Source of the DNA: an uncultured Pelagibacteraceae bacterium
Lineage (GTDB): Bacteria > Pseudomonadota > Alphaproteobacteria > Pelagibacterales > Pelagibacteraceae
DNA length: 64,000 nt
Direction: 5' to 3'
NCBI GenBank assembly: GCA_902635545.1
Contig: CACPOL010000004.1
Location: 1-64,000, forward strand
Shown here: positions 21,972 to 31,696 of the stretch, in pieces
How the letters are laid out: the number at the start of each line of letters is the position of its first letter
How positions within the stretch are numbered: position 1 is the first letter of the stretch
Position numbers and translations under genes: made by a program
The notes under the pieces: generated by a model
The model's input: only the letters and a program-made list of their open reading frames with translations
The model's database searches: none
What the model was told of the DNA's origin: nothing

Positions 21972-22862
21972 ATGAATTTATCACTATTACAAAATTTCAA
22001 AGATACTGATTTTCATATAAATCCTTTCCCTCATATTATAATTCATGATGCTTTACCCAATAATATTTACGAAAAATTGAAGAATTCTGCACCAATTAAT
22101 TTAATCCCAAACATTCAGGAGGATAACGTAAGGGGAAATATTCATCATGATCAAATGAAAGATAATTTTAAAAATAAAATGTTTTATGATTTTTTGAATT
22201 ATCATAATTCTGTGGAATATTATGAAGAATTTATTTCAATTTTTGAAGATCATTTAAAAAAGCTTTATCCTAATTTAATTGAGAGAACGAGATTGCTTAT
22301 TAAAAAGAAACAATTTTTAAAATTAACAAGTGAAAATTCAAAGAAAGAGAATTTTATGACTTTTAATTCTACTTACTCTTATAATACTCCTGTAAAATCA
22401 TCCTCTCATATTATTGGACCTCATTTAGATCATTACGATAAAATAAATTTTGGGCTATATTATTTAAGATTAGATGAGGATAAATCTGAAGGTGGAGACC
22501 TTGTAATTTATAAATGGAAGAATGGATATAATGATTTTAAAAAAAAAAATATTATCTATACTGAAAAATGGTCTAATATGATTTCACATACTGAACCAAT
22601 TAAAACGTTAAAGTATAAAAAAAATACATTCATTTTAGCATTAAACTCAATCAATTCTCTTCATGGTGTTACCCCAAGAAACCAAACAAATCATATTAGA
22701 CAATTTTGTTATTTTTCAACCTCATCAAATAAAGATTTAGGTTTTGCTACTCCAAATTTATTAGAAAAAATTTTTTTTAAAGATATTTCTATTAAAAGAA
22801 AAATTTGTATTATCTTAAATTCTTTAAGATTCTGGACTAATAAAATTTTTAAAAAACTTTAA
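21972..22862 (+). CDS. 2OG-Fe(II) oxygenase-like (prolyl-4-hydroxylase type)
   Basis: GPHLDHYDKINFGLYYLRLDEDKSEGGDLVIY (HxD) ... LHGVTPR; ATG 21972 preferred over TTG 21954. Confidence 0.65.
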   Translation: MNLSLLQNFKDTDFHINPFPHIIIHDALPNNIYEKLKNSAPINLIPNIQEDNVRGNIHHDQMKDNFKNKMFYDFLNYHNSVEYYEEFISIFEDHLKKLYPNLIERTRLLIKKKQFLKLTSENSKKENFMTFNSTYSYNTPVKSSSHIIGPHLDHYDKINFGLYYLRLDEDKSEGGDLVIYKWKNGYNDFKKKNIIYTEKWSNMISHTEPIKTLKYKKNTFILALNSINSLHGVTPRNQTNHIRQFCYFSTSSNKDLGFATPNLLEKIFFKDISIKRKICIILNSLRFWTNKIFKKL

Positions 22863-22905
22863 GGGATCGTGGTTTTGGGTTTTGTTATAGGATAGTATGG
22901 GAGAA
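22852..22905 (+). pseudogene. Decayed secretion-leader fragment (KKL*GIVVLGFVIG*)
   Basis: aaaaaactttaagggatcgtggttttgggttttgtta closely resembles leader coding DNA at 23361 and 24140. Confidence 0.55.
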
Positions 22906-22908
22906 CTT

Positions 22909-22935
22909 GGACCTATTGATTACAAATCAATTGCT
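22909..22935 (-). repeat. 27-bp tRNA-Thr fragment, putative old att remnant
   Basis: ggacctattgattacaaatcaattgct identical to 31648..31674 inside tRNA-Thr. Confidence 0.85.
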
Positions 22936-22986: not shown

Positions 22987-23008
22987 CTGGTCACACTCTG
23001 GGCACAGT
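22987..23008 (+). repeat. Paired 11-bp direct repeats CTGGTCACACT CTGGGCACAGT (arm-type-like, left)
   Basis: Two adjacent 11-bp units, matched by units at 25135-25156. Confidence 0.7.
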
Positions 23009-23042
23009 GGTAGTGTTTTAATAATTAAATAAGGAGATTCAT

Positions 23043-23357
23043 ATGGCAATATTAGTAAAAGGCGAAATTACAATTACTAAAGGATTTAAAACATGGAAAG
23101 AGATGGTCTATGCACAGGATGGAAAATTAAAAGAGCATGGAATAAAATTTGTTTTTGCAGGCACACAAAAAGATGACCCGACAAAACTTCATACAGTAAT
23201 GCAATTTCCAAACATGGAAGCACTCCAAGCTTTTAAAGATGATAAGGAACTTGCTGAGAAAAGAAAAGAAGCAGGTGCTGTTTTAGAGAGTGCTGTAATG
23301 ATACCAATTTCAGATGAACATTTAACCAACTATCCAGATGCATATACAAATCATTAA
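23043..23357 (+). CDS. Small conserved protein, possible dimeric alpha/beta-barrel (DUF3764/ABM-like)
   Basis: TAAGGAG RBS; FKTWKEMVYAQDGKLKEHGIKFVFAGTQKDDPTKLHTVMQFPNMEALQAFKDDKELAEKRKEAG. Confidence 0.6.
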   Translation: MAILVKGEITITKGFKTWKEMVYAQDGKLKEHGIKFVFAGTQKDDPTKLHTVMQFPNMEALQAFKDDKELAEKRKEAGAVLESAVMIPISDEHLTNYPDAYTNH

Positions 23358-24140
23358 ATGAAAAAACTTTTAGGGATCGTGTTTCTGGGTTTGTTGTGGA
23401 TAAATACTGCGTACGCAGTAAGTTTGCCCAAGGATGTAGCTTCAGGTAGTAAATTTAAAAAAAGCCTTACAGGGAACTATTATAAAAAATATGGAATGCA
23501 AGTAGTTAATAAATCAGATGGTCATCCAGTACGTGCGGGTGAACAATCTATAAGGTTTGAATTAAGAGCTGGTGATTGCGGTAAAGATACAGATGGTAAA
23601 TGGAATGATTGTAAAACAAATCGTGAAAGACATGAGCTGAGTGCAAGGCTTAGAGTTAGCAAAGGAGATAGATGGTATGCTTGGTCAATTTATATGCCTG
23701 AAGATTTTGTAAATGTTGATCCTGTATCAGTTATACTTGGTCAGTTTCACCAAGAAAAAAAACACGTAATTTGGATGTTTAAAAATAAACGTGGTGGATA
23801 TTGGATCGAAAACTATGTTCCAGAATATACTGTAGGAAGCACTCAAATTTTTTCAAAAGAAGAGTTGTTAGGAAAATGGAATGATATATTGGTAAATGTT
23901 AATTGGACACATAAAGATGATGGTTATTTTAAATTATGGGCAAATAATAAATTAGTTCTTGATTTTAAAGGTGCAACAAAATCTAAAGGTGTGAAAACAT
24001 ATTTTAAATTTGGAATTTATAGATCTAAAGTGAGTATTTATAAGCAGATACATAAGAAAGATATACCCATACAAGTAGTATATTTTGATGAAGTAAGAGC
24101 TGGTAAAAAAAAAGAAGATGTAATTAAGAATTTAAAATGA
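23358..24140 (+). CDS. Secreted polysaccharide lyase-like protein (heparin lyase I-like beta-jelly roll)
   Basis: Signal peptide MKKLLGIVFLGLLWINTAYA; RFELRAGDCG...RERHEL, GQFHQ, GYFKLWANNKLVLDFKG, FGIYRS, VYFDEVRAG. Confidence 0.65.
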   Translation: MKKLLGIVFLGLLWINTAYAVSLPKDVASGSKFKKSLTGNYYKKYGMQVVNKSDGHPVRAGEQSIRFELRAGDCGKDTDGKWNDCKTNRERHELSARLRVSKGDRWYAWSIYMPEDFVNVDPVSVILGQFHQEKKHVIWMFKNKRGGYWIENYVPEYTVGSTQIFSKEELLGKWNDILVNVNWTHKDDGYFKLWANNKLVLDFKGATKSKGVKTYFKFGIYRSKVSIYKQIHKKDIPIQVVYFDEVRAGKKKEDVIKNLK

Positions 24141-25099
24141 AAAAACTTTTAGGGATCGTGGTTCTTGGTTTGTTAATTAATTTTCTAAACCTAAATGATA
24201 TTGAGGCAAATACTTTAACAATAAAAAACCAAGTGATTAAAACCAAAGGTGATGTTTTCTATAAGTGGCCACATAAGTGGCAATATAATTATGACATGTC
24301 TTTTTGGAAACCCTACATGATCCAAGAAGTATCTACAAATGTTAGATATGGTGATAGTGCTTTAAGGTTTGAACTAAGAAAAGATAGTTGTGGGTCTACA
24401 AAAAATGATGTTAAAAAAGGTACTTCGTGGGATTGTGGAAAAAATAAATCAGAAAGAACTGAATTAACTCCAGCAAACGAAACTGAACAAATCGGATTTA
24501 AAGGTAATGTATGGCAGACATTATCTTTTTATGTAGAAAAATTTCCACATGAAGAAGGACATAATTCTATTTGGCAGATTCACAATGATGGTGATTGGGC
24601 ACCAATGTTTAATTGGTCAATTGAAGAAGATGGTCTCTATACACAAAGAAGAACTGCTTGCAATGATCCTAAAATTTATAAAAAGAAAAATGCCAAAGGT
24701 AATGATGGATGTTCTGTAAAATGGAGAGAGAATGCAAATATAAAAGTGTTAGAAATATCTAAATTATTCGATCGATGGATCGATGTAGTAATGAACATTA
24801 ACTACACAACTAAAGATAGCGGCTTTTTAAAATTATGGCTTAATGGAGAGTTGGTATATCACTTTGAAGGATCAATTATTCCACCAGCAGGTAAAAAAAA
24901 TGGTGAATGGAGTAATTGGTCAACAATGCAATTTGGAATATACAGAACAGATTATCATGGTACTAGAGGCACTCAAATTAATTATTATGACGAAATTAGA
25001 TTTGCTAAAAAAAAATGCTCAAAACTAAAATTAGAGGAACTTGGCTACAGCTGTACTGAACTTGAAAATCAAAAAATTAATATTGATAGATACAATTGA
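24137..25099 (+). CDS. Secreted polysaccharide lyase-like protein, paralog of preceding gene
   Basis: Leader MKKLLGIVVLGLL; RFELRKDSCG...KSERTEL, IWQIHNDG, GFLKLWLNGELVYHFEG, FGIYRTD, NYYDEIRFAKK. Confidence 0.65.
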   Translation: MKKLLGIVVLGLLINFLNLNDIEANTLTIKNQVIKTKGDVFYKWPHKWQYNYDMSFWKPYMIQEVSTNVRYGDSALRFELRKDSCGSTKNDVKKGTSWDCGKNKSERTELTPANETEQIGFKGNVWQTLSFYVEKFPHEEGHNSIWQIHNDGDWAPMFNWSIEEDGLYTQRRTACNDPKIYKKKNAKGNDGCSVKWRENANIKVLEISKLFDRWIDVVMNINYTTKDSGFLKLWLNGELVYHFEGSIIPPAGKKNGEWSNWSTMQFGIYRTDYHGTRGTQINYYDEIRFAKKKCSKLKLEELGYSCTELENQKINIDRYN

Positions 25100-25134
25100 T
25101 TTTTAAAAAAAGACCACTTGATTGGTCTACAAAT

Positions 25135-25156
25135 CTGTCCACACTCTGACCACACT
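25135..25156 (+). repeat. Paired 11-bp direct repeats CTGTCCACACT CTGACCACACT (arm-type-like, right)
   Basis: Two adjacent 11-bp units matching 22987-23008. Confidence 0.7.
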
Positions 25157-25211
25157 TATTGTAGTAAGAATAGCTTTTGCATAAACTATTTTGGTAAAAA
25201 AGTAAGAGAAG

Positions 25212-25260
25212 TGGTGCCCCCGCACGGATTCGAACCGCGGACCTATTGATTACAAATCAA
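25212..25260 (-). repeat. 49-bp exact 3' partial copy of tRNA-Thr (att site)
   Basis: tggtgcccccgcacggattcgaaccgcggacctattgattacaaatcaa identical to 31621..31669 (CCA end, T arm, anticodon arm). Confidence 0.95.
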
Positions 25261-25335: not shown

Positions 25336-25357
25336 ATTCACTTACAATTCACTTAAG
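25336..25357 (+). repeat. Paired 11-bp direct repeats ATTCACTTACA ATTCACTTAAG (left end of element 2)
   Basis: Matches right-end pair 31499-31520. Confidence 0.75.
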
Positions 25358-25922: not shown

Positions 25923-26018
25923 AATTCTACTTAAATCATACTTTGTTGGTTTAAATTCGACTGAATAATGTCGTTATTTTGAAAGATACAAAATAATTAA
26001 TCTGTGTTAAATTTTTTA

Positions 26019-26756
26019 ATGTCTTACACAAGGCCATGTACTAAATGTGGGCAAAGGATAAGCCTAAGACAAATGCCAGCTGGTCAGTGGGTTGCTTTTG
26101 ATGTTTCAACAGAAGAGGCACATATTTGTGGTATTCAAAATAAACCAGATGTTTCAGTAAAAATTAAAGGAAAGAAAAAAAAGAAATTTGAAGAGGATGA
26201 CTCAATAGATTTGGGTTATGACAACTCAGATTTACAGGTAGAAGAAGATGAGGATTTTGAGGAGGTATCAGAGGAAAATAAAACATACGACACCACATCT
26301 GGAATTCACAAGTGTATAGATAAATCAATTAAAGAAAAAAAAAGAATTCTAATTGATTATTATAGTGAACATAATGAGGAAAATACCCAAAGAGAAATAA
26401 GTCCTATAAAAAAGTTCAGATTTAAGGACAGAACTTATCTCCAAGCTTATTGCCACAAAAGAAAAGGTGAAAGAAATTTCTTAACAAGGAGAATAGAAAC
26501 CGCTTCACAAGTTGACAAGAAAAGAATCAAAATCAAATTTGGAAAACCTAAGACTAAATTTTTAGAAAAACAGAGTGAAAAAGAAGATGATGAAGTAGAT
26601 GTATATAAATCAACAAAAGTTAGTAGAGAAAATGTGGCTCGAGAAACAATACCGGAAATAGACACTTCTTCTCAAACACCAGGTTGGTTGTATATAGTTA
26701 TATTTATAATTGTAATGGGATTGGCAAGAGGTTTGTTAATTCCTTTAATGGATTAG
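26019..26756 (+). CDS. N-terminal zinc-binding motif + WYL-like domain + C-terminal TM protein
   Basis: RPCTKCGQRISLRQMPAGQWVAFDVSTEEAHICG; ILIDYYSEHNEENTQREISPIKKFRFKDRTYLQAYCHKRKGERNFLTRRIETA WYL-like; TM tail YIVIFIIVMGLARGLLIPL; GTG start in track. Confidence 0.6.
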   Translation: MSYTRPCTKCGQRISLRQMPAGQWVAFDVSTEEAHICGIQNKPDVSVKIKGKKKKKFEEDDSIDLGYDNSDLQVEEDEDFEEVSEENKTYDTTSGIHKCIDKSIKEKKRILIDYYSEHNEENTQREISPIKKFRFKDRTYLQAYCHKRKGERNFLTRRIETASQVDKKRIKIKFGKPKTKFLEKQSEKEDDEVDVYKSTKVSRENVARETIPEIDTSSQTPGWLYIVIFIIVMGLARGLLIPLMD

Positions 26757-29974: not shown

Positions 29975-30514
29975 CTATAAAGAACTAAACAAGCCAAATA
30001 GAAAACCTGCCAGTATTAATGCACCAACAATTTTAAATATTACATTATCTGTATCTGAGAATACAGGGGGATCTTTTTTTATAGATCTATCCTCAGAACT
30101 TTTTTCAATTTCTTGACGTTCTTGATTAATAACAGGAGTTTTTACTCCTCCTACTTTTTCGAAATTAATTCCTTGTTTTTCTTTTATGTTTTCTAATTGC
30201 TCCTCTAAAACTTCAATTTCTTTATCAATTTCAGACTCATAATAAACTTCTTCAATTTTTGAATTTATTTCTTCAACTTTGTCAGGTGAAGGGTTTTGAG
30301 CTTCAATATCTGAATAACCTAAATCGACACCTTCTGAGATTTTATCTTTTATACTTTCTTTTGCTAATTTTTTTATGTTTGGATCAGCTTTAGTTTTTTT
30401 TCCACATTTGTGTGGATTTTGTGTTGAAGCATCAAATGCAACCCATTGACCAGCTCGCATTTCTCTCATGCTTATTCTTTGACCACATTTATTACAGGGT
30501 CTTATGTATGCCAT
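29975..30514 (-). CDS. N-terminal zinc-binding motif + coiled-coil + C-terminal TM protein, paralog of 26019..26756 N-terminus
   Basis: MAYIRPCNKCGQRISMREMRAGQWVAFDASTQNPHKCG; TM IVGALILAGFLFGLFSSL. Confidence 0.6.
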   Translation of the reverse strand: MAYIRPCNKCGQRISMREMRAGQWVAFDASTQNPHKCGKKTKADPNIKKLAKESIKDKISEGVDLGYSDIEAQNPSPDKVEEINSKIEEVYYESEIDKEIEVLEEQLENIKEKQGINFEKVGGVKTPVINQERQEIEKSSEDRSIKKDPPVFSDTDNVIFKIVGALILAGFLFGLFSSL

Positions 30515-30596
30515 AAATCTATTAGGGTTAATCTATCTAAATTTTTTAGTAAAGTCATTTCAATTAAGTTACATTATATATAGTAAAATATTTTAA

Positions 30597-31498: not shown

Positions 31499-31520
31499 AT
31501 TCACTTAATATTCACTTACC
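31499..31520 (+). repeat. Paired 11-bp direct repeats ATTCACTTAAT ATTCACTTACC (right end of element 2)
   Basis: Same unit as 25336-25357. Confidence 0.75.
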
Positions 31521-31620: not shown

Positions 31621-31696
31621 TGGTGCCCCCGCACGGATTCGAACCGCGGACCTATTGATTACAAATCAATTGCTCTACCAACTGAGCTACAAGGGC
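31621..31696 (-). tRNA. tRNA-Thr(UGU)
   Basis: Reverse complement gcccttgtagctcagttggtagagcaattgatttgtaatcaataggtccgcggttcgaatccgtgcgggggcacca; anticodon TGT. Confidence 0.95.

Follow-up and report, generated by a model that had tools for sequence, protein, structure and literature searches.

The two ends of element 1, an insertion of about 2.3 kb in tRNA-Thr(TGT) of an uncultured Pelagibacteraceae bacterium, each carry a tandem pair of 11-bp units, and the two pairs have the same orientation (22987-23008 and 25135-25156). These pairs are probably arm-type sites of a lambda-like tyrosine integrase, situated in the two att arms of a cassette that has no integrase; binding of such a protein and mobilisation in trans are inferred. 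The element lies in the window, that is, the whole stretch of 64,000 nucleotides analysed here (Table 1). A sequence-only reading of this DNA had reported paired 11-bp repeats just inside both ends of element 1, and its coordinates, sequences and orientation proved exact. The consensus CTGNNCACACT is present without mismatch in three of the four units, and the fourth, CTGGGCACAGT, differs from it at one position. The left anticodon-arm core (22909-22930) ends 56 bp away from the left pair, and a distance of 55 bp separates the right pair from the copy of the tRNA-Thr 3' half.

Table 1. Features of element 1, element 2 and their tRNA-Thr site (positions in the window).
Feature	Position	Strand	Remark
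Left attachment remnant of element 1, anticodon-arm part of tRNA-Thr, GGACCTATTGATTACAAATCAATTGCT	22909..22935	-	27-bp exact match to tRNA-Thr
Left arm site 1, CTGGTCACACT	22987..22997	+	Unit at offset 56 from core in 47/59 small tRNA-Thr elements
Left arm site 2, CTGGGCACAGT	22998..23008	+	Unit at offset 67 in 55/59 small tRNA-Thr elements
Cargo gene, 104-aa DUF3764-like protein	23043..23357	+	Three other cassettes encode a member of this 104-aa family
Cargo gene, PF14099 polysaccharide lyase, 260 aa	23358..24140	+	E 3.1e-27
Cargo gene, PF14099 polysaccharide lyase, 320 aa	24137..25099	+	E 1.7e-22
Right arm site 1, CTGTCCACACT	25135..25145	+	
Right arm site 2, CTGACCACACT	25146..25156	+	
Tentative inverted third arm unit, CTTACTACAAT (minus-strand reading)	25158..25168	-	Inferred, weak in window
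Exact 49-bp copy of tRNA-Thr 3' half, serving as right end of element 1 and as left att of element 2	25212..25260	-	
Element 2 left arm pair, ATTCACTTACA ATTCACTTAAG, type B layout	25336..25357	+	Score 58/66
Element 2 right arm pair, ATTCACTTAAT ATTCACTTACC	31499..31520	+	
Intact tRNA-Thr(TGT), integration target	31621..31696	-	

Taken singly, 11-mers with one mismatch are not uncommon in the window, with 6 found against 3.7 expected. The non-random feature is the tandem pairing at both ends, not the single 11-mers. With up to two mismatches allowed, the 22-bp pair pattern occurs at these two places only in the 968-kb genome. The agreement among the four units, 53/66, exceeds both the maximum of 45 among 1,800 random window pairs and the best of 40 shuffles (39). 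At the place of the tentative third unit (25158..25168), other right ends whose arms lie at -77 have an inverted unit.

The anatomy of the site is that of lambda-type att sites in two respects. A core repeat is present at both element ends (the 22-bp core three times and the 49-bp tRNA half twice), and tandem arm sites stand at fixed spacing on both sides. With att sites at both ends and no integrase, element 1 also has the makeup of a cis-mobilizable element (CIME). Its DUF3764-like gene occupies the position where integrase-bearing relatives carry int. The assignment of element 1 to the phage satellites (PICI, PICMI, tycheposon) was rejected, as the element holds only the DUF3764-like gene and two lyases and no integrase, replication or packaging genes of its own. 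The adjacent element 2, in which no integrase was found either, has its own pair type, ATTCACTTANN, at both ends. This pair, unlike that of element 1 in sequence, had been overlooked by the sequence-only reading. The genes of element 2 are WYL, helicase-PLD, Mrr and TerB. An inverted repeat of 135 nt (26016-26150 and 30383-30517, 78% complementary) lies between the start of one element 2 gene and that of another, and the two genes have a common N-terminal cysteine-containing region. Near-identical DNA encoding the start of a signal peptide (MKKLLGIVV) is found in the window at 22852-22887, 23365 and 24141, and in 32 of the 59 small tRNA-Thr elements described below. The degenerate copy at 22852 may be a remnant of an older, eroded cassette.

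The same layout was observed in many elements at tRNA-Thr. The tRNA-Thr half is present in 266 of the 369 genomes of the genus, often in two to five tandem copies, and 66 elements were delimited from fetched loci. Since these loci were picked for tandem copies or for the motif, they are not a random sample. The four-unit agreement was above the best of 40 shuffles in 56 of the 66 elements; one of the 56 (L221) has an AT-rich top match that is probably spurious. The 59 small elements (<3.3 kb) have a left pair that begins 56 bp from the core, and their right units are spaced in 11-bp register at about -97, -86 and -75. In the seven large elements (3.4-7.7 kb, including element 2) the left pair begins at 74-75. 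The arm sequence varies between small elements and agrees between the two ends within one element. The left-right agreement in the small elements was 32.3, against 26.9 +/- 0.46 after permutation, with a maximum of 28.6 in 5,000 permutations. The permutation spread is too narrow, because related elements are not independent. More weight attaches to the fact that each of at least six different arm types shows agreement between non-homologous ends. The cargo of the cassettes is largely unrelated (129 proteins in 82 clusters). Three elements (L037, L039 and L040) have left and right arm pairs of different sequence types and are possibly fusions of two cassettes.

The association with tRNA genes extends beyond tRNA-Thr. 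A scan of 398 Pelagibacterales genomes for the CTGNNCACANT pair, with at most one mismatch, gave 27 matches in 24 genomes, and the reversed-pattern control gave none in the same genomes. A tRNA gene or fragment is located 44-97 bp away from 23 of the 27 pairs, compared with 27 of 300 random positions (9%) in the same loci; six tRNA species (Thr, Ser, Val, Glu, Met and Leu) are represented near the 23 pairs. The spacing of 40-110 bp to tRNA fragments that the sequence-only reading had predicted was therefore borne out, and pairs scattered across unrelated intergenic regions, which would have refuted it, were not seen. This spacing supports its proposal that arm-type sites mark the element ends, while the binding itself remains an inference. 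The motif is not tied to one integrase family and represents one specificity among diverse, element-specific arm sites. One further match flanks an integrase-bearing element inserted at a glycine riboswitch that precedes the start of a gcvT-like gene (L035, 3524-7944), with a 49-bp riboswitch repeat at both ends. The 12 pair matches in viral contigs were mostly of higher GC and without the tRNA layout, and were treated as near chance. A scan of the order for the ATTCACTTA pair was discarded, as it was swamped by a recurrent ATTCACTTTTGATTCACTTA stretch; its reversed control was uninformative because the pattern reads identically backwards.

Searches of the 59 small elements with an SAR11 integrase profile, the recombinase of the own genome and a P4-type integrase as queries gave no integrase-like ORF. 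For the most part, then, the arm sites lie on elements in which no integrase was found. We restrict the negative result to the small elements because the P4-type integrase of a large element (L203), which has an Arm-DNA-bind_3 domain, escaped the first screen and was later found by Pfam. The GACTACA arm of L203 recurs in L226, in which no integrase was found.

Integrases that share the layout and the tRNA target of the cassettes are, however, present elsewhere, and for some cassettes the arm sequences match as well. In about 20 of 27 integrase loci (a few counted by eye) a tandem pair precedes the int start codon by 29-47 bp. Two integrase types, each with a different arm layout, are found at tRNA-Thr, and three integrases (L199, L243 and L253; L243 and L254 are one record) adjoin the same 49-bp tRNA-Thr half. 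The L199 arm, CTGTCCGCACT, matches CTGTCCACACT of the window at 10 of 11 positions. L253 is a complete element of 6.9 kb, the right-end pair of which, TTGACAACAAT CTGACAACACT, is identical at 22 of 22 positions in L225, an integrase-less cassette of 1,495 bp. The L161 satellite encodes an integrase, a primase-like protein and a TerS-like protein and has TGACACA arms; an integrase-less cassette of 1.4 kb follows it in tandem and shares these arms. The TerS assignment in L161 is based on resemblance to the TerS of L199, which was itself identified by Pfam. All three of L199, L161 and L253 carry int together with primase- or helicase-like genes, and L199 carries a small terminase. At tRNA-Met, integrases (L250 and L251) are accompanied by TGATCACA and TGGGCACA arms, which belong to the arm type of element 1.

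The predicted structure of the L253 integrase is of low overall confidence (mean pLDDT 58.8). Its N-terminus forms a beta-beta-beta-alpha domain (block pLDDT 69-85), and a Foldseek search with the model placed full-length lambda Int at the top, at TM-scores of about 0.4. The lambda-type arm-binding domain consists of three strands and a helix, according to the available part of PMC8138268. In a comparison of no more than four integrase sequences, residue 14 of the arm domain is E where the arms are of the CGCA type and W where they are of the CAACA type.

A tRNA-Thr integrase with exactly the TGNNCACA arms was not found among the integrase loci examined, and its existence is inferred. No integrase of a matching family was found in the own genome, which is 82% complete. 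The left-end sequence of the cassettes was absent from 2.9 million viral contigs, and no relatives of the L035 and L199 integrases were found in the viral contigs except L199 itself. Most viral contigs with the tRNA-Thr core simply hold complete tRNA genes and were set aside. The 18 integrases together were too divergent for their alignment to serve in a scan of the collection. The window's genome does encode a 317-aa tyrosine recombinase (L003, 1129-2082), the only PF00589 protein found in it. In most of the Pelagibacter genomes checked, PF00589 is likewise represented by one protein, comparable in size and score.

The cassettes are probably mobilised in trans by phage-satellite integrases; this reading is drawn from sequence alone, and movement has not been observed. 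The missing tRNA-Thr integrase with these arms, the lack of matching families in the own genome, the absence of the left-end sequence from the viral contigs and the few elements with unlike ends weigh against it. The helper integrase would be supplied most likely by a phage-satellite element targeting the same tRNA. Its N-terminal arm-binding domain would contact the paired 11-mers and its core-binding domain the tRNA anticodon arm, so as to bridge arms and core. Strand exchange would then excise the cassette as a circle or insert it.

It is worth noting that the sites could be relics. The cassettes would then be satellites after deletion of int, without site-specific movement, and the diversity at tRNA-Thr would have arisen by homologous recombination between tRNA repeats and element ends. 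This main rival is unlikely in our judgement but has several observations on its side, namely the small cassettes without integrase, the lack of matching integrase families in the own genome, the left-end sequence common to the elements, the mosaic elements with unlike ends, and the absence of cassette ends from the viral contigs searched. The offsets, however, are fixed and the four sites agree in at least six sequence types, whereas unused sites should decay; the largely unrelated cargo also speaks against relics. It might also be supposed that the mover is the conserved Pelagibacter recombinase of 317-325 aa (L003 here) and not the satellite integrases, since it is the sole such protein found in the own genome and a similar one is the rule in the Pelagibacter genomes checked. 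We consider this improbable. The Pfam SAM-like core-binding domain of this protein lies at residues 18-84 and therefore leaves no room for an arm-binding domain, and several arm specificities are hard to explain by one protein.

The position of the left pair directly upstream of the first gene would fit operator sites of a transcription regulator. The right pair, however, comes after the last gene, the pairs keep a constant distance to the tRNA core, and the pattern is also found at both ends of the riboswitch-integrated element, so that operators are very improbable. Replication iterons or DnaA-box-like repeats deserve still less credence. One unit contains TCCACA, which we take to resemble the end of a DnaA box, but the bases preceding CACA vary freely between elements, pairs are present at both ends, and element 1 has no replication gene.

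The arm-type sites of a trans-acting integrase can be compared with known systems. As in lambda attP and at the sites of lambda Int and Tn916-type integrases, tandem sites about 11 bp apart flank a core, and the L253 integrase is predicted to have, like lambda Int, N-terminal arm-binding, core-binding and catalytic domains. Unlike lambda, the SAR11 cassette has no integrase, and the arm sequence differs between elements at one tRNA. CIMEs are att-flanked, integrase-less elements found in tandem with integrase-bearing elements at one tRNA. The SAR11 cassettes resemble them in all of these points but are much smaller (0.7-3.2 kb) and occur many per lineage, and their helpers appear to be phage satellites, not conjugative elements.

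Integron cassette arrays without integrase (CALINs) are known, as described in the accessible portion of PMC11389934. The SAR11 cassettes are similar in forming arrays and in holding one to four genes without integrase, with the cargo almost all in one orientation. They differ from CALINs and integrons in that the sites found consist of a tRNA core (tRNA halves) and paired 11-mers, and each cassette restores the tRNA 3' end. Small tRNA-repeat cassettes are also known from other streamlined marine bacteria, from the available excerpts on Actinomarinales (PMC7771536) and on fGI-2 of Methylophilaceae (PMC10872708). These islands likewise hold small cassettes at a single tRNA, with direct repeats of tRNA fragments; the excerpts, however, describe the tRNA repeats alone and mention no arm classes, arm pairs or matching integrases. 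The likely helpers (L199, L161 and L253) resemble tycheposons, VEIMEs and PICMIs, which are satellite-like with a tyrosine integrase. Known satellites encode their own integrase, as far as the available text of PMC10803314 indicates, whereas the SAR11 cassettes do not. Within the portions available, the open-licence literature was not found to describe paired arm sites for tRNA cassettes that lack an integrase.

The gain and loss of accessory genes in streamlined SAR11 is poorly explained, because many islands have no recognisable mobility gene. The arm pairs provide a sequence handle by which cassettes can be delimited and the integrase able to move them predicted. The helper relationship thereby becomes testable. 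Whether SAR11 has an integron-like system is, in our view, evenly balanced. In such a system a tRNA gene would be the landing site, tiny integrase-less cassettes would carry an arm pair as an address, with several address types per tRNA, and matching satellite integrases would transfer the cassettes from cell to cell.

Copies of the 5' part of a tRNA (bases 1-38 or 1-39) were also observed, near tRNA-Leu(TAA) in L042, L044, L045, L046 and L048 and near tRNA-Val in L043 and L032. This suggests that the elements at these loci carry the 5' rather than the 3' half.
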